Positions 19,401 through 31,898 of a stretch of DNA of 32,561 nt are shown one piece after another. The position numbers were made by a program, and so were the translations under genes. The DNA comes from Syntrophomonas sp. Lineage in GTDB: Bacteria > Bacillota > Syntrophomonadia > Syntrophomonadales > Syntrophomonadaceae. The stretch spans positions 61,946 to 94,506 of the forward strand of contig JAENZN010000015.1 in NCBI GenBank assembly GCA_016841245.1, in the 5' to 3' direction. The notes under the pieces are model-generated. The model was not told the DNA's origin and made no database searches. It saw only the letters and a list, made by a program, of their open reading frames with translations. Each line of letters starts with the position of its first letter. Position 1 is the first letter of the stretch.

Positions 19401-19548
19401 GCAGATAGGGTTCAGCTTTATTAAAGCCGATTATGAATCAGTCTGCGCTGCAGGGGCGGCTTTCAACGTAAAAGCCGGCGACGTGATAGAAGTGTTTATC
19501 GTGGATTCTCTGTCGAACGATTCCAGCTCTAACCCCCATGTGCTTTAG
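16408..19548 (+). CDS. Large secreted surface protein with beta-helix and Ig/cadherin-like domains, 1046 aa
   Basis: A signal peptide (1-35, ending PVKAAA) leads into a carbohydrate-binding-like right-handed beta-helix domain (about 36-250) with a Gly/Asn-rich segment (NGGNGGNGGNGG). Then come a Big_5-like Ig domain (about 350-450), two similar Ig-like domains with the SYQWY/TYQWY motif (about 452-545 and 550-632), two cadherin-like beta-sandwich modules (from DLESLSVS at about 637 and DLSSLSIAG at about 755), a putative He-PIG-type Ig domain (about 850-930) and a C-terminal domain of unknown type. There is no SLH or sortase signal. The next gene starts 17 bp after the stop and does carry SLH domains, so the pair may assemble on the surface together. 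Confidence 0.85.
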   Translation: MSKIMRLNKYRFISIALSLLLVIGLLPQLTAPVKAAAYTFDLFFGSISITSNTVTYYDSSSTEQTQSFSAGDELVITQTNSSSTVSSGSITVNGGTESDPLNITLSGVNIDSSGCAFKLTNTSNVILKLDDETENTLISSGYNAGVQVPSGTTLTIDGNGSLDVTGGTNAPGIGGNGGSNRTLTNGGNGGNGGNGGVVTINGGTVTVSGRISGGGGNSGGTGGWGYSCPSGYNGGNGSSGGTGSCKITGGSFYISSTIASTPTNGSDTVYLTSVTLDGVTAEIPVSALTTNAVSTYGINDTMTDTSGNLYLWLPDETKTTGAQTPAGRYEGSITTTTSPLTSVGTLTKIPETVKPTVSSVDYNEDNTLLGGEIIVTFSEAMDNSVSGSISLDGGITILSSGVWSNYNQTYTISYSGLSDSTTYTISIFGFADTSGNIMEDDTANTLTTIEKPEFITQPSNVSVFQNETATLPVLAVSSKSLSYQWYSNTTDSNSGGVLISGATGNTYSAPTDTLGTTYYYSVATIVGTTMSVTSETAEVTVGIKITSGPTLSETGGEITLSITAQGSGTLTYQWYKNTVKSNRGGTIISAATDSRYILPADGSGTSYYYYCVVTDDSTSVSAASATISVSVVKDTSTDLESLSVSTGALSPSFDPDTVVYSVYAASQFNSIGITADPDTVAYSVYGASEFNSIGITAVMNDPSAALTINENTAVNGEETTVDLDNGKNLIPIVITAADGATQKSYIISVNGTVSNADLSSLSIAGHTLNETFSPNTTDYTLDLANSVSYIDLTAATSDSGAVMLVDGKIIDSGDSSEISLDGDTLIEIMVVAQDASTKTYTLTVNREETLAITIGKLPTGIIGAEYSAALTATGGSGGYSWSATGLPDEITLSSGGTLSGLPTAGGQYSIDLTVTDTNSNTASKTLTLTFRPGCGNGAYAIAPDGDLAYTGSYTDDGLLNLTVNSGVSGFTYFSVDVSSLTGHPGNEICLFVHIRNGAQIGFSFIKADYESVCAAGAAFNVKAGDVIEVFIVDSLSNDSSSNPHVL
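18367..18498 (+). repeat. 66-bp tandem duplication inside the surface-protein gene
   Basis: Copies 18367-18432 and 18433-18498 encode DPDTVVYSVYAASQFNSIG and DPDTVAYSVYGASEFNSIG. They duplicate 22 residues inside the first cadherin-like module. The copies have diverged at several silent and non-silent sites, so this is an old event rather than an assembly artefact. Confidence 0.9.
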
Positions 19549-19564
19549 AAGCTGCGGAGGTGTA

Positions 19565-21061
19565 ATGATGATTAAAAGGTTTAAGATAATTGCCGCCTGC
19601 GTATTGAGCGCGGCGATGCTTTTTCAAATACTGATAATTACCGCTTTTGCGGCTGACTGTACTCTGAATTTGAGTACATCAAGCGGTTACGCGGGAGACA
19701 GTATCACCATATCAGGGAACTGTGACCCGAACGAATGGATAACCGTCAAGGCCGGGGATTCAGACGGCAACATCGTATATATCAAGCCGGTACTGTCCGC
19801 AAATGACGGTAAATACAGCACCGGCTTGATCGTACCGGATATCGATGCCGGGATGCTTACGATAATAGCCGGCTCAGGCAGTAATGTAGCAAATATTGAT
19901 TTCACGGTTAAGAAAACTTCTTCTCATGAAGGGGACGGCAACGACGACAGCGCAGTTAATAATGAGGAGAGTTCGAAAGAAATTGAGATTGTAAACTCTG
20001 GCGGCGAAACAATATCCGGCACCATTGAGGAAACAGAAGACGGTTACGATATAACGATAGGCGGAGACGATTTCAGCAAGATCACAGGCGGGTCGGTCAA
20101 AATCGCGGCGCCGTACGTTGAGGTCACCTTCGATGAAACGGCGGCTGAATATATCTCCAAGCAAGCTGGTTCGGGCAACGTTGTACTCAGTATCATAAAT
20201 GCGGGTGTTTCCGGACTGTCCGATGAAGCACAGGCACTTATCGGGGACAGCCCGGCTTATGAATTTATCCTCAATGCTGGTGGCTCGGACCTTTCATCCT
20301 TCGGCGGAGGGCTAGCATATGTTTCCATACCGTATACTCTGGCGGACGATGAGGAAATAAAAAGGATCGTCATCTATTATATATCTGACGCCGGCGGGCT
20401 TATGGTTATGACGGACTCCATTTATGATGGCGCATCGAAGAATGTTAAGTTTTCAACCGGTCATTTTTCTGTATACGCTGTGGGGTACAACGATATTTCT
20501 TTCGACGATGTTTCAAACTCCAACTGGTTTTATGACGCGGTCACTTTCTGCGCCGCGCGTGAGATAACGTCGGGCACGGGAAATAACATGTTCAGCCCGG
20601 ATATGACATTAACGCGGGGCCAATTCATCACTCTGCTGATGCGGGCTTACGACATCGAAGCCGACGGGGATATCTCCGGCAACTTTGCTGATGCGGGACA
20701 CGCCTATTATACGGAATACCTCGCGGCGGCAAAGCGACTTGGCATTACAAAGGGCTTGGGAAACAATATGTTCGCTCCGGAAGATGAGATAACCAGACAG
20801 GATATGTTCACGCTGCTGTACCGGGCGCTGGATGTTCTGGAAGAATTACCGGAGGCGGATACCTCTTCATCCCTGTCGGATTTCAGCGACACGGACGAAA
20901 TTTCCGATTATGCCGACGATGCTATGAAGACACTGGTTGCGGCAGGCATCATATCCGGCAGCGACGGGAAACTCATGCCCATGGGCAATTCCACCCGCGC
21001 GCAGATGGCGCAGGTGATCTATAATCTGCTATCTTCATCTTATGCAGATCTCAAACATTAG
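19565..21061 (+). CDS. SLH-domain cell-surface protein, 498 aa
   Basis: The start is ATG 19565 or the adjacent ATG 19568, after GGAGG; an in-frame ATG at 19538 overlaps the previous gene and has no ribosome site. A signal peptide (ending TAFAA) precedes an Ig-like region, an acidic linker (about residues 120-150) and a ZU5/GAIN-like segment. Three S-layer homology repeats occupy about 320-495 (FDDVSNSNWFYDAV...TSGTGNNMFSPDMTLTRGQF; FADAGHAYYTEYL...TKGLGNNMFAPEDEITRQD; FSDTDEISDYADDAMKTLVAAGIISG). SLH repeats bind pyruvylated secondary cell-wall polymer. The gene is coupled to the preceding surface-protein gene. Confidence 0.92.
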   Translation: MMIKRFKIIAACVLSAAMLFQILIITAFAADCTLNLSTSSGYAGDSITISGNCDPNEWITVKAGDSDGNIVYIKPVLSANDGKYSTGLIVPDIDAGMLTIIAGSGSNVANIDFTVKKTSSHEGDGNDDSAVNNEESSKEIEIVNSGGETISGTIEETEDGYDITIGGDDFSKITGGSVKIAAPYVEVTFDETAAEYISKQAGSGNVVLSIINAGVSGLSDEAQALIGDSPAYEFILNAGGSDLSSFGGGLAYVSIPYTLADDEEIKRIVIYYISDAGGLMVMTDSIYDGASKNVKFSTGHFSVYAVGYNDISFDDVSNSNWFYDAVTFCAAREITSGTGNNMFSPDMTLTRGQFITLLMRAYDIEADGDISGNFADAGHAYYTEYLAAAKRLGITKGLGNNMFAPEDEITRQDMFTLLYRALDVLEELPEADTSSSLSDFSDTDEISDYADDAMKTLVAAGIISGSDGKLMPMGNSTRAQMAQVIYNLLSSSYADLKH

Positions 21062-21260: not shown

Positions 21261-21321
21261 TATAAAAAAGGGAACATGATTTCCCTTACCAGTCCAGTTC
21301 CTGCGTAGTTCCTTTTTTATA
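21261..21321. terminator. Large hairpin, probable bidirectional terminator
   Basis: TATAAAAAAGGGAAC and GTTCCTTTTTTATA pair except for one bulged G. The A/T tracts give it terminator character in both directions. It would end the surface-protein operon 200 bp after the SLH gene. Confidence 0.55.
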
Positions 21322-21326
21322 ATATC

Positions 21327-21392
21327 GGAATCAACCGGCGCCGGCGTTTTAATGTCAATATTAGTTTTATTGCGCATTCCCCGTGACTTGTT
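21327..21392. repeat. 66-bp direct repeat, left copy
   Basis: It matches 24014-24079 at 63 of 66 positions in the same orientation. It begins GGAATCAACCGGCGCCG and ends CCCCGTGACTTGTT. The GGCGCC palindrome lies near the left end. It may be an attachment-like site or the end of an old mobile element. Confidence 0.85.
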
Positions 21393-21434
21393 TTGCTAAA
21401 AATGGTAAAGGCCACCCATAAGGGGGCACCTTCC

Positions 21435-21554
21435 AGACCGTCAAAAAACGCGAATATCTGCGTTGCTGTGAAAAGCCCATTCAATCACCGTACTTCAGTA
21501 CGGCTCAATCACGGGCTTTTCGAGCGCCTTGATCTTCACATTTTTGCTCGGTCT
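21435..21554. repeat. 120-bp imperfect palindrome
   Basis: The two halves pair along most of their length. AGACCG pairs with CGGTCT at the ends, GAAAAGCCC with GGGCTTTTC in the middle, and CCGTACT with AGTACGG around a short apex. Internal loops are nearly symmetric. No protein frame is convincing. It resembles a palindromic repeat element or a long structured RNA. Confidence 0.65.
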
Positions 21555-21724
21555 GTTCTTCACAACAGCTGCTACCATGATCGGCCGGGGGGTATATCCG
21601 TCTGAACCGATCATTTTTCAACCCCCCCCAAGCTTGCGCCCGGGGGGTGTCCTTATTGTGAAACAAAAAGGTTCCCGGGACCCGCAAGCAATCTTTGATT
21701 GCGTCAGCGGGGGGGGTTTCTTAT
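21555..21724. other. Non-coding stretch with GC-homopolymer hairpins
   Basis: ATGATCGG/CCGATCAT (21577-21625 area) and C8/G6 runs (about 21630-21660) form further inverted repeats, and a G8 run lies near 21710. No gene is seen. The homopolymers make the assembly here less certain. Confidence 0.5.
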
Positions 21725-22080
21725 TTACAAGGTCTCACTCAGGCCGTCGTCATTTTTTACCGGTGCGTGAGCCGTTGCAGGCATTATTTTGCGATAGACT
21801 TCTTGGTGGGATTTCTTTTGTTTATCCACAGTGAGAAGTCGATCTTTACTGATAGCAAAGAGTTTTTCATTTTCTTCCAAGTACGGCAGGATGAGATCCC
21901 AGTCCGCATCGCTGATTTCATTAAATTCACCGCCGTTAAGCTGTTCATCTACCAGCTTTTTCTGCGGATCACGAACATAGCGGGATAGAGCCGTCCTCAT
22001 CATTAAAGCCGATGCCGTTTAAGACGACAAACCCACCGCCGTTAAGCGGATCGCCGGCCATGAAGGAATATTGTCGTATT
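21725..22080 (-). pseudogene. Decayed glutamate-synthase GXGXG-domain gene
   Basis: Upstream frame: RQYSFMAGDPLNGGGFVVLNG then IGFNDEDG. After a change of frame it continues SRYVRDPQKKLVDEQLNGGEF, then EISDADWDLILPYLEENEKLF and VYRKIMP to a stop at 21725. I recognise these as pieces of the C-terminal GXGXG-type domain of stand-alone glutamate synthase subunits. About 20 residues between the two pieces are missing (PYPGGNLFS-type region), and the N-terminal part is gone. It is not functional. Confidence 0.55.
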
Positions 22081-22174
22081 AGCTGGTTACTTATGCCATT
22101 ATATCCTATACATTCTAGTAGTGCTAAAAGAAGTACATAAGGCCATCATCCGATAAATGTATAAGGTTATTTAA

Positions 22175-22272
22175 ATCTGCATTGAGGCTGTCATAGTCCA
22201 TTATGCACCATAGATCCTATGACTTTGCGTCTCTATCTTTTGATAAGTTTGCCCGTAGCGCTGCTGACAATT
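22175..22272 (-). promoter_or_regulatory. c-di-GMP-I (GEMM-I) riboswitch aptamer, orphan
   Basis: On the minus strand the conserved core is intact: GGGCAAA (22254-22248), a TATC-AAAA-GATA hairpin with a GNRA-like apex, then GACGCAAAG. A second stem GTCATAG/CTATGAC follows, with an internal hairpin, and then AGCC closing towards the GGGC strand. This is the c-di-GMP-binding aptamer that controls motility, adhesion and surface genes in Clostridia. Downstream on the same strand only the glutamate-synthase remnant is left, so the original target gene seems lost. Confidence 0.85.
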
Positions 22273-22368
22273 AGGTTGTTAATATAACCTAAGACATAAT
22301 TTTATAAAATGAACAAAAGCATTTCTTGAAGGATCGGATGGAAGTATCTTGTGTGTTAATGCTAATAC

Positions 22369-22905
22369 TTAGACCTTTTTAAAGTTATACACAAAGCTTT
22401 CTTCGAAAAAATTATAATGTATCAAGTGTCCTTTACAATTTCCTTTATAAACAAATCCAGCCTCAGTTATTGCATTTATCAATTGTTCATAATCTGTAAG
22501 ATGAGTAGGATGAATTGAAAGTATAGCTTCTTTCTTTAATAATCTGCGCATTTCTTTAATAAGGTTTTTTCTGTTTTGATCACTAAAGTAATGTAACACA
22601 TCATATAACAAAGCTACATCAGCGATTTCGTTTTGAAGGTTTAAATCCAACTCTCCGTTTGTTTTTATCATCTCGATATTATTTAATCCGCTTTGAGAAT
22701 ACCGGTCTCTTAAACTTCGAAAACCGTTCCCGCTTTTATCAATCGCATAAACTTTTCCTCCTGCCCCAACAATAAACGCTGCTGAAATACAATAAAAACC
22801 TGCACCACATCCAAAATCAATTACAACATCTTTTTCTTTAATACCAATATCGTGTAAAAAAGTTATTCCCTCCGTCTTTTCCCAATTAATATGTTCCCTT
22901 TTCAA
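22369..22905 (-). CDS. Class I SAM-dependent methyltransferase, 178 aa
   Basis: The Rossmann fold is clear: motif I VVIDFGCGAGFYCISAA (residues 27-43), motif II VYAIDKS, and post-motifs IADVALLYDVLHYF and RLLKKEAILSIHPTH. It belongs to the broad Methyltransf_11/UbiE-like group; the substrate cannot be read. The TTG start at 22905 follows AGGGGTG. The gene is AT-rich. A TACTAC-N4-GTAGTA palindrome lies 52 bp upstream, and the same site precedes the TrmB-type gene upstream, so the two form one regulatory unit. Confidence 0.88.
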   Translation of the reverse strand: MKREHINWEKTEGITFLHDIGIKEKDVVIDFGCGAGFYCISAAFIVGAGGKVYAIDKSGNGFRSLRDRYSQSGLNNIEMIKTNGELDLNLQNEIADVALLYDVLHYFSDQNRKNLIKEMRRLLKKEAILSIHPTHLTDYEQLINAITEAGFVYKGNCKGHLIHYNFFEESFVYNFKKV

Positions 22906-22956
22906 TGTTTCACCCCTTTATCCTTTTTTGAACGCGCATAAATAACCGCAAAAACA

Positions 22957-22972
22957 TACTACATTTGTAGTA
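22957..22972. promoter_or_regulatory. Palindromic operator upstream of the methyltransferase
   Basis: TACTACATTTGTAGTA, with perfect 7-bp arms. It shares the consensus TACTAC-N4-GTAGTA with the site at 23858-23873. Confidence 0.7.
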
Positions 22973-23027
22973 AGCAAAGGATGAAATAAATTGCCTATTA
23001 ACAGGCAGTTGATTAATTGCTATAAAA

Positions 23028-23846
23028 TTAAAGATTTAATAGTCCTTCCAAATTACTGCCATACTTTTCGAGTACCAATTCCTTAAAATCCGAAATTAAT
23101 CTGTTAATGTAAATATCGTGACATATATAATTCTCTATTATGCTAATCACGCCCTGGTTGGAAGTATAATAGCCTTCAGTTTTCTGATCCTGATTCTTAA
23201 AAGCAAACATGCAGAATAAGTCGTCAACCACCAGAATGAACTCTGAAGAATGCACCTTTTCGACTGCCGGCAGTATTTCTGTTTCGTGCCTGAATACCTG
23301 TCCCAGCGGTATTATTTCTTCACTCATCTGGTTGCTTATTATTTTTACTCCTCGCTTGATCGCATCTTCCATCTGATTTTGCACCTTAACACCGTCATTG
23401 TGCCAGAAACTGATCATAATAGTCTTCTCAGCCTTACTAATTAATTCTCTCGCTTTATCCATCAGATTGTCGTAGCCTTGAATCTGCCAAAGCCAACTGG
23501 GATACTTATTTTGGCTTATGGAATTTTTATGATCAATTAGATAATTATTGATTCTCAGGTGTTTTGTAATATTGTTTTGTACAAAATCCTCCAGTGGCAA
23601 AGGTTGATAGCGAACTGGATTATCACCGGATGGATAAATTAGTCCCTTATCGATTAAAGCGTTTAAAGTTTCATACACCTTAGGTCCAGGAACCCCTGAA
23701 AACTTCTGGATTTCTCTGCCATAGCTGAGATTGTTGCGCAGTAAGGCTAAATATATCTTCCCTTCATATTTTGATAATCCCAGTTCATTAAAACAATTAA
23801 TGACTTCATCATCGGAAAAGCCGCCTGGTTCTTTGATCTTAAACAC
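23028..23846 (-). CDS. TrmB-type transcriptional regulator, 272 aa
   Basis: The N-terminal winged helix (about 14-80: LGLSKYEGKIYLALL...GREIQKFSGVPGPKVYETLNALIDKGLI...RYQPLP) is of the TrmB/SugTrmB type. A helical linker follows, then a C-terminal domain (about 120-260: DNLMDKARELISKAEKTIMISFW...LVVDDLFCMFAFK...GYYTSNQGVISIIENY), the PLD-like effector domain of this group. Known members bind sugars or other small ligands. The annotated GTG start at 23846 sits directly against AAGGA; a few residues may be miscalled. A small hairpin (22993-23006) may attenuate readthrough into the methyltransferase. The upstream palindrome suggests autorepression. Confidence 0.88.
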   Translation of the reverse strand: MFKIKEPGGFSDDEVINCFNELGLSKYEGKIYLALLRNNLSYGREIQKFSGVPGPKVYETLNALIDKGLIYPSGDNPVRYQPLPLEDFVQNNITKHLRINNYLIDHKNSISQNKYPSWLWQIQGYDNLMDKARELISKAEKTIMISFWHNDGVKVQNQMEDAIKRGVKIISNQMSEEIIPLGQVFRHETEILPAVEKVHSSEFILVVDDLFCMFAFKNQDQKTEGYYTSNQGVISIIENYICHDIYINRLISDFKELVLEKYGSNLEGLLNL

Positions 23847-23857
23847 TCCTTTTTCAG

Positions 23858-23873
23858 TACTACTAATGTAGTA
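23858..23873. promoter_or_regulatory. Palindromic operator upstream of the TrmB-type gene
   Basis: TACTACTAATGTAGTA, arms TACTAC/GTAGTA, twelve bases before the GTG start and just downstream of the predicted transcription start. This is a classic repressor position. Confidence 0.7.
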
Positions 23874-23884
23874 ATCTTATTTAT

Positions 23885-23914
23885 ATAATAAAATAAGTTC
23901 ACATACTCAGTCAA
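23885..23914 (-). promoter_or_regulatory. Sigma-A-type promoter of the TrmB-type gene
   Basis: On the minus strand TTGACT (23914-23909) and TATTAT (23890-23885) are 18 bp apart. The palindrome at 23858-23873 lies immediately after the expected start point. Confidence 0.55.
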
Positions 23915-24013
23915 TGGGGTCCTACGTCCAGTGTAACAAATGCAGCTAACGGCTAACAAAGAAACAGCAGACTATGTGAAAATAAGGCTTATCAGCGAAT
24001 TCCAATCGTTGAT

Positions 24014-24079
24014 GGAATCAACCGGCGCCGACGCTTTAATATCAATATTAGTTTTATTGCGCATTCCCCGTGACTTGTT
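24014..24079. repeat. 66-bp direct repeat, right copy
   Basis: 63 of 66 positions match 21327-21392 in the same orientation. Together the two copies enclose the remnants, the riboswitch and the TrmB/methyltransferase module. Confidence 0.85.
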
Positions 24080-24604
24080 GGAATAGTATCCGTAATACCT
24101 ACCAGTTGTTCCCCCTTATTGGGAATATGGGTGATAATTCTGGACAGCCAGTGACGTCCAAGGATGGACTAATGTCGCGGTGCCATGGATGGCAAGGAGC
24201 GACCCAGGGCCGTAAAGCTTTCCCGAATGCTGCTGTTTTTCCCTTTGTAGATTACTCGGGCTATACCGTCGGGTACTGCGGATGAAGGTATATAAAGTAG
24301 TCTTTCCTGCAAGAGGGGGGCTCTTATAATATATTCACTTATTACGGCAGGATATAAATTGGGGGTGGATATGAACCGGGTTGGAAAGATGGCCAGTGTT
24401 ATATTTGATACTCCACAATACGGAACAGGTATGGCCATGGTAAATTATCGGATCAGCATCAATGAAAATTCTTTTGCTCGGCTGCTACAGCCCTAAATAT
24501 ATAAAGCCTTTGCAGACCTGGACAGAAAAATTAAGAACGGTAGGGGCACATTGTCAAAGAAATGTACCCGGATGAATATTATAAAGAAGATGTTCTTATG
24601 GAAT
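24080..24604 (+). other. Region of unrecognised gene remnants
   Basis: A 41-codon frame at 24371-24496 (MNRVGKMASVIFDTPQYGTG...) has a GGGGGTGGA ribosome site but ends in TAA, after which the same frame continues as YKAFADLDRKIKNGRG. A neighbouring frame reads KEMYPDEYYKEDVLMELND. Another frame has MKILLLGCYSPKYIKPLQ. All look like decayed coding DNA, and I cannot assign a family. Confidence 0.4.
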
Positions 24605-25229
24605 TAAACGACACACCTGCTGAAGCAGGTGGATTTTCTTGCAAGTAAAACTTGCTTTAAGTCTAAAGCCTTCTGAAAAGTCCATTTGCTCAAGCAAAAT
24701 AAATGTTTCTAACTAAAACTTAGTTGTCAATTTTAAAGTTATCGCCTTTTTCTTGTATTTCTTGATCCTCAATGTATTTCCTGACGGTTTCTTCAGTTAC
24801 AGTACCTACGGTTGCACAAAAATATCCTCTTGCCCATAAGTGTTGACCCCAATATCTCTTTTTTAGTTCTGGGAACTCTTCCTGTATCAAATGTGAAGAT
24901 CTTCCCTTTAAGTACTGTACAATCTTGCTTGGGGCCAACGTAGCAGGACAGGACAGCAGCAAGTGAACATGATCTTGACCTATACTTCCTTGTACTATAG
25001 TAATACTTCGAGCTTCACAGCCTTGTCGTATCAGTTCTCTTAGTCTTAGCCCTATATCGCCTTTTAATATTTTGTATCTGTATTTTGTAACCCAGATTAC
25101 ATGATATTTGATATCGTATATCGCGTGGCTGCTTTTCCTGTATTCAACCATTATCCTCACCTCTTGAGTATAATATGGCTGAAATACTACCTGCTAAACC
25201 TTTCCCGCCTTTAAGGCGGGGGATTTAAA
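24605..25229 (-). mobile_element. IS200-type insertion sequence
   Basis: A single Y1 transposase gene is flanked by subterminal hairpins instead of inverted repeats. The left end is CCCGCCTT-AAGGCGGG (25204-25220) and the right end ACCTGCTTCAGCAGGT (24614-24629). This is the architecture of IS200/IS605-family elements without tnpB. Exact ends are estimated. The left end abuts the stop codon of the methyltransferase gene. Confidence 0.85.
24720..25151 (-). CDS. tnpA: IS200-type Y1 transposase, 143 aa
   Basis: The small single-domain HUH transposase has the core strands HAIYDIKYHVIWVTKYRYK, the HUH motif in DHVHLLLS (about residues 59-66 of the full frame) and the C-terminal helix GTVTEETVRKYIEDQ carrying the nucleophilic tyrosine. 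It catalyses single-strand peel-and-paste transposition using the terminal hairpins. I choose the ATG at 25151, placed correctly after GAGGTGAGG, over the GTG nine bases earlier. The length is typical and the frame intact, so it is probably active. Confidence 0.95.
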   Translation of the reverse strand: MVEYRKSSHAIYDIKYHVIWVTKYRYKILKGDIGLRLRELIRQGCEARSITIVQGSIGQDHVHLLLSCPATLAPSKIVQYLKGRSSHLIQEEFPELKKRYWGQHLWARGYFCATVGTVTEETVRKYIEDQEIQEKGDNFKIDN

Positions 25230-25821
25230 CCTGGCACATTGATATTAAACAGTTCTTGCGAATGATTGGAATTAATAATTGACCATCTTTTGTTTCCAGA
25301 CACTTAGGAATTTCCTTTATAGCCTGGTTTTCCAAATATTTCGGTGCATCCAACTGATGGCGCAAGAAGTTCCATGCTTCCTGATAATCCCTTATCGGCT
25401 GGCTAAAATTATGTACTAATATTTGGCATTTAACATCAAGCCCTTTGCTCTCAAGAAATCCTTTTTCCCAGCACCCGTTGGCACAGGGAGTATTTTTGCT
25501 CGGCAACCCCAGTTGACAAGCTAATCCATTGATTGAATCATTGTCTTTCATATCCTGGCAGGCATTTTCCCGACCTGACATTTCAGCCTTTTGCTGTAAT
25601 ATTTTAAGAGCTTCTGATTGCATGTCCACTGCTAGAACACGCTTACAAAGAGCAGCTACATATAAAGAAATGGCGCCTATACCGCATCCGGCATCCAGGA
25701 CCGTGTCACTATCCTCTATTTCTGTTTGTAAAACCTCTCCTAAGATAGCCTGGGGATAATTGGACCATTTCACCGCCTGTTCGTACCAATCAACTATTTG
25801 CGTATTCCATACTTGTGCCAA
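25225..25821 (-). CDS. Class I SAM-dependent methyltransferase, 198 aa, 3' end at IS border
   Basis: I place the start at TTG 25821, six bases after GAGGTG. Motif I (TVLDAGCGIGAISLYVA) and the acidic loop (VLAVDMQSEALKIL) are intact. The middle part is unusual, Cys-rich and Asn-rich, followed by PIRDYQEAWNFLRHQL. The last residues MCQV and the TAA stop lie at the left end of the IS200 element, so the original C-terminus may have been slightly changed. It lies about 300 bp after the unknown protein of the transporter/radical-SAM cluster on the same strand and may be its last gene. The substrate is unknown. Confidence 0.82.
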   Translation of the reverse strand: MAQVWNTQIVDWYEQAVKWSNYPQAILGEVLQTEIEDSDTVLDAGCGIGAISLYVAALCKRVLAVDMQSEALKILQQKAEMSGRENACQDMKDNDSINGLACQLGLPSKNTPCANGCWEKGFLESKGLDVKCQILVHNFSQPIRDYQEAWNFLRHQLDAPKYLENQAIKEIPKCLETKDGQLLIPIIRKNCLISMCQV

Positions 25822-25830
25822 TCTTCTCAC

Positions 25831-26120
25831 CTCACTTTTAAAAAATACCAGCTACATTAAGATTAAGGACAATTTTGTTTAATAATAAGATATAACTCAA
25901 CTTTCGCAGATTATCAATGCAAAGGGCTGTGGTTTAGCGAGCATTAAGCTTTGTTCCGACGTCACCCTTCACTCTCCGGGTACTACCCCGAAACGGGACA
26001 ATTGATGTGCATTCACTTTTTTACCGCACTATTAAGCTAGCTGATACTTCCGCTGGTCGTAATTAATATTGCGGTCGGGCTTAATTTATCAAATAGAAAC
26101 ATATTATCTGGAGCAGTAAT
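25831..26120 (-). other. Leader region before the methyltransferase gene
   Basis: No ORF is seen. On the minus strand the hairpins CCCG-TTT-CGGG and GGGTA-G-TACCC overlap and are mutually exclusive (about 25969-25997). A GC-rich block around 25940-26000 stands out from AT-rich flanks. It could be an RNA leader, but it matches no riboswitch consensus I know. Confidence 0.4.
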
Positions 26121-31156: not shown

Positions 31157-31898
31157 CTTTGCTTTCCCTCCAATATAAGAGCACTCTGCACTTCTGGTAC
31201 ACTATCATCCGGCAGACATCTAATTCCTATCTGCCAGCTAAAAGCGTTGAAAAACACACCTAATCTATACAATATTTCCACCCCGGGTTGCCTGACTGAC
31301 AGTTAAATTCTCTTATGGTTGGCTTATCAGCGAAACCAATAAATAACTGAATACATGGTCATACTGATATGCCATTTACCGAGGGTGACATATCCTCACC
31401 TTATAAACAGGGACAGAAAAACCTGACGGCAAAGGAAGGCACGTCAGGTTTATTAACGGTTATATACAAATACTCCCCTTTCCAAACATGGGAGGCATAC
31501 CCGTTTCCCGGTATACCCATAGGTTTTGCGCCATAGTGCTCGCACTTCAGGATACAAAACTCGGAGATAAATTAATATTCGATTTTGATAATATAATTCT
31601 ATCATTTTTAATAAAATCCTCTAAATTTATCATAACATTGTTAAATAGGAATTTGCTTTTTCCATTTCAGTATACCTTAGTATATTATTAGTACGCTAAA
31701 CATACTTGAGCAAGGAAATGGGGTCGGGGTTTCATGATATTGGGCAATGTATAGCCAGTGAGGGAAAGACATCTTGCTGGTTTCATAAAAATTTAATCAG
31801 ATTTCAGAAACTTATCCAGAATCCGGGCGTGGTTAAATAAACTATGAAAAATTCACTATCCTGTCGTGACAATCAACATAGTCCTCATCATTGCTTGC
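31157..31898. other. Upstream region of the transporter operon and non-coding DNA
   Basis: No intact gene is visible. The 250 bp before the ATPase gene contain no cobalamin, Moco or other riboswitch consensus I can recognise. An imperfect dyad (ATGG-T-CATA-CTGA-TATG-CCAT, 31355-31375) could be an operator, and a hairpin lies at 31419-31451. 31460-31898 is AT-rich, with scattered short frames. Confidence 0.5.
31419..31451. terminator. Hairpin, possible terminator
   Basis: AAACCTGACG and CGTCAGGTTT form a perfect 10-bp stem with a 13-base loop, followed by TTATTAA on the plus strand. Confidence 0.5.

Follow-up and report, generated by a model that had tools for sequence, protein, structure and literature searches.

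What does a c-di-GMP-I riboswitch regulate when no open gene lies behind it? The question is raised by a 32,561-nt stretch of Syntrophomonas sp. DNA (the window), in which a minus-strand aptamer sits among truncated genes and transposase remnants. The features on which the argument rests are listed here in window coordinates.

21268-21287, minus strand: terminator-like hairpin with a U tract, in the interval that separates the aptamer from the convergent SLH gene (pattern scan)
21291-21392, minus strand: the shorter of two remnants of one transposase gene (the other at 24014-24204), 92% identical to G000:C15:2651-2752
21556-22067, minus strand: gltB-like (glutamate-synthase) gene lacking its 5' part, the 3' end being followed by the region natively downstream
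22068-22174, minus strand: post-aptamer leader up to the junction, without a terminator hairpin and without a start codon that has an evident ribosome-binding site
22068-22373: 306-bp piece carrying the aptamer, between two junctions; among the genomes searched, found only in this one
22175-22263, minus strand: c-di-GMP-I (GEMM) riboswitch aptamer (RF01051 match, with an alignment in which non-standard pairs are marked)
22281-22308, minus strand: TTTATA-16-TATATT, a weak match to a sigma-70-like promoter immediately upstream of the aptamer (pattern scan only)
22374-24013, minus strand: block of a TrmB-type regulator (23028-23846) and a class I methyltransferase (22369-22905), sharing 92% identity with its counterpart in another genus
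24014-24204, minus strand: IS91/ISCR-like transposase gene remnant and element end, 94% identical to G000:C15:2687-2878

Identity and condition of the aptamer

The first-pass annotation had proposed a c-di-GMP-I aptamer at this locus, and running the RF01051 covariance model over the window bore this out: in a cmscan search with 4227 families, positions 22263 to 22175 of the minus strand match the full model (1-87) at 50.0 bits (E 4.5e-7), against a gathering score of 35, which places the sequence within the family. The upstream limit had been set at 22272, about 9 bases too far, as the model match begins at 22263. Rfam covariance models recognize two RNAs in the window, this aptamer and a Moco riboswitch (31578-31459, minus strand). 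The genome holds five RF01051 matches (82.2, 72.1, 50.0, 47.8 and 38.1 bits), and among the matches listed for 61 relatives, few score below the 50.0-bit aptamer.

The aptamer core had also been described as complete, which holds for the ligand contacts only. In Vc2 of Vibrio cholerae, c-di-GMP is contacted by G20, A47 and C92 (PMC4744006; contacts also in PMC11218506); after Vc2 numbering was mapped by hand onto RF01051 model positions, the equivalents of all three were found to be kept in the alignment, within GGGCAAA, GACGCAAAG and UGC. The helices, however, are worn, with 5 of the 22 consensus pairs non-standard, as compared to one and two broken pairs in the genome's two best aptamers (82 and 72 bits) and two in a same-genus aptamer. 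The P2 tetraloop is AAAA rather than GNRA (most relatives have GAAA), and the aptamer does not possess intact P2 and P3 helices with a GNRA tetraloop. It thus shares a full-length aptamer match with the class exemplified by Vc2, Vc1 and Bc1 of Bacillus thuringiensis, but departs from that class in its P2 loop, its five broken pairs and the absence of both a platform and a downstream gene.

Such wear must be read with care. The GNRA loop is typical but not strictly required, because an altered loop is also present in other aptamers of the same genome. Nor does a weak score or wear by itself prove decay, because another aptamer of this genome (L004, 47.8 bits), nearly as worn with four broken pairs, has about 350 nt behind it an open frame whose start resembles a signal peptide. 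The genome also contains 12 strong GGDEF matches, from which it follows that the ligand is probably made in this organism.

The leader and the joined pieces

No terminator hairpin or start site was found between the aptamer and base 22068, and the RNA across this interval folds no better than shuffled sequences. The best U-tract hairpin after the aptamer reaches -3.1 kcal/mol, whereas the same script applied to related loci finds, within about 75 nt, hairpins that in most cases have -8 to -30 kcal/mol and in a few cases are weaker; a hairpin of this kind is present at nearly all the related loci checked, often with a gene for a secreted (signal-peptide-like) protein behind it. The aptamer at 22263-22175 is followed neither by an expression platform (a terminator or a sequestered start) nor by a gene, and the frame downstream of the leader has stops throughout. 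A coding reading of the leader itself (LALLECIGYNGISNQ...) was rejected, as it gave no family match. The promoter match scores 9 of 12, and such sites are no commoner than in shuffles; the hairpin at 21268-21287, at -7.8 kcal/mol, is likewise not better than shuffles.

The decayed glutamate-synthase sequence previously reported downstream of the aptamer is real. At G000:C15 lies an intact 863-aa gene with the Pfam domains GATase_6 and GXGXG; positions 21779-22067 share 93-100% identity with its 3' part, and the whole of 21556-22067 is collinear with the intact loci G000:C15, G003:C5, G009:C105 and G035:C45. The gltB sequence upstream of 22067 is absent from the locus, and the remnant contains a frameshifting internal deletion (about 59 nt net, at 21980/21983), through which alone a 92-aa open frame (21725-22003) arises. 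The hairpin-rich stretch downstream of the aptamer folds better than shuffles (z -3.3); the palindromic stretch there is part of the gltB end. We also considered whether c-di-GMP and glutamate synthase might be linked and rejected the idea, as none of the gltB loci examined in relatives has an RF01051 match.

The 306-bp piece ends sharply on both sides, meeting the truncated gltB 3' end at 22067/22068 and the TrmB/methyltransferase block at 22373/22374. A DNA search of 54 family genomes gave no match to this piece beyond its ends and 32 bp within the aptamer core, and none was found in plasmids and phages. The counterpart of the neighboring block lies in JAQUXM010000131.1 (a Syntrophomonadaceae MAG of another genus, 92% identity), where similarity stops at the methyltransferase and no riboswitch follows; the block ran on into the aptamer piece in neither of the two relatives found through the TrmB neighbor among 84,980 named genomes. 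At its other end, the boundary between the block and the transposase remnant (24013/24014) is exact. IS91/ISCR-like remnants flank the whole mosaic (21291-21392 and 24014-24204), the first being 95% identical to 24014-24079 over 66 nt; the transposase ORF at G000:C15 weakly resembles the C-terminus of the ISCR (IS91-like) transposase, below the family cut-off. Three pieces of different origin are joined here: the TrmB/methyltransferase block, the 306-bp piece and the gltB end.

Other repeats and riboswitches

Several further elements were observed in the window and the genome. An imperfect palindrome at window positions 21434-21556 is dispersed, with 27 matches in the genome (including loci L103-L128) and many more in two sister species. 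A hairpin resembling an intrinsic terminator often adjoins a copy immediately, and roughly half of the copies have this hairpin, or a large part of it (17-37 nt), a second time beyond their opposite end, which far exceeds what shuffled controls show. Its appearance suggests a small mobile element for which terminators serve as targets and become duplicated; this terminator-inserted repeat is more unusual than the riboswitch. A second dispersed repeat (25893-26109) occurs in many copies, 75-87% identical, both here and in two sister species, and an IS200-like transposase segment (24596-25249) has an identical 654-bp copy at G000:C8.

As for riboswitches, the Moco riboswitch (31459-31578, minus strand; 78.7 bits) lies upstream of a gene cluster encoding an ABC ATPase, a binding protein, a FecCD permease and a radical-SAM protein. 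L002 (1501-1593; G000:C16:243446-243538) is a c-di-GMP-I aptamer in good condition that has a strong terminator. Behind it, in place of a long gene, come a 13-codon frame whose ribosome-binding site is strong (AAAGGAGGGCAAAATG) and a second terminator, which makes L002 the stronger candidate if a small RNA or peptide under c-di-GMP control is sought. In the 38.1-bit match at L005 (1501-1571; G000:C7:61555-61625), the P2 half is preserved and a terminator-like hairpin stands in place of the P3 half.

Origin and present role of the aptamer

We conclude that the window probably holds a stranded, decaying c-di-GMP-I aptamer whose platform and target were lost through rearrangement. On the simplest history, a rearrangement beside the insertion-sequence remnants would have fused the riboswitch leader to the gltB end and, in so doing, cut out the expression platform and the target gene, after which the aptamer would have begun to drift. 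Its ancestor probably resembled the switches of its relatives, in which c-di-GMP binding would determine whether transcription ends at an intrinsic terminator or continues into a gene whose protein is secreted or displayed on the surface. A present-day transcript would pass through the truncated, frameshifted gltB end into palindromic sequence and stop there, and the aptamer would therefore control no protein. The first-pass annotation had called the riboswitch an orphan whose target was probably deleted. The missing platform, the lack of an open gene and the sharp 22067/22068 junction agree with an orphan; the deletion, like the lost target and the lack of function, is something that we infer, because a search for the 306-bp piece in the 54 family genomes, plasmids and phages brought up no related locus where an intact gene accompanies this aptamer. 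The idea that surface-protein genes nearby point to the target is not supported, the nearest being an SLH gene (19538-21061) that is convergent on the opposite strand. Against decay, the score is still above the gathering cut-off and all three ligand contacts are kept.

A survey of antisense riboswitches (PMC9943018) includes cases next to transposase genes or pseudogenes (its groups f and g), which it explains by insertions or chance events at riboswitches that were once canonical. The same reading fits the window aptamer, although here, unlike in the published cases, the pseudogene end is on the aptamer's own strand and the canonical ancestor was not found. Literature searches found no description of an orphan c-di-GMP riboswitch in this group.

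Alternatively, and in line with the unannotated RNA that the first-pass annotation also proposed, the aptamer may still work and govern a short non-coding RNA ending at the palindromic region 21640-21720 or at 21268-21287. Intact ligand contacts, the folding of the hairpin-rich stretch (z -3.3) and the weak upstream promoter match would suit such an RNA. However, no hairpin lies near enough for switching, the 306-bp piece is absent elsewhere and so gives no sign of conservation, and the downstream palindromes are found at the gltB end without any riboswitch; we regard this possibility as unlikely. That the aptamer took on a new use in place of the lost gene, as a non-coding RNA which c-di-GMP controls and which lacks a classical expression platform, seems more doubtful still; if it were true, with ligand bound and RNA made, a riboswitch would have turned into a stand-alone RNA sensor.

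From sequence alone, a mis-assembled junction is possible, the genome being a draft of 56 contigs with repeated IS remnants around the region, and the real gene of the aptamer would then lie elsewhere. Yet a unique 306-bp piece and diverged remnants (92-95% identical) are not the identical repeats that mislead an assembler, and such errors would leave the broken pairs and the gltB frameshift unexplained; we consider them quite improbable. An antisense riboswitch, with its transcript directed against the 3' end of the SLH surface-protein gene, is suggested by the convergent arrangement and by a survey in which c-di-GMP riboswitches had the strongest antisense tendency (PMC9943018), but with about 1.1 kb between aptamer and gene, and with the minus-strand terminator-like hairpin (21287-21268) and other palindromes intervening, we give it very little credence. 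Least credible of all is regulation of the translation of the 92-aa frame as a small gltB-end protein, for the frame, although open over 92 codons with C-terminal gltB residues kept, was opened only by the frameshifting deletion, has no family match and has no ribosome-binding site evident in its sequence.

The stranded, decaying aptamer is, in kind, an ordinary relic in the genome, and the riboswitch class from which it comes is a known one. It would provide a clean example of how rearrangement can strand a regulatory RNA without its gene, and it suggests that caution is necessary when inferring function, since a covariance match alone does not show a working switch.
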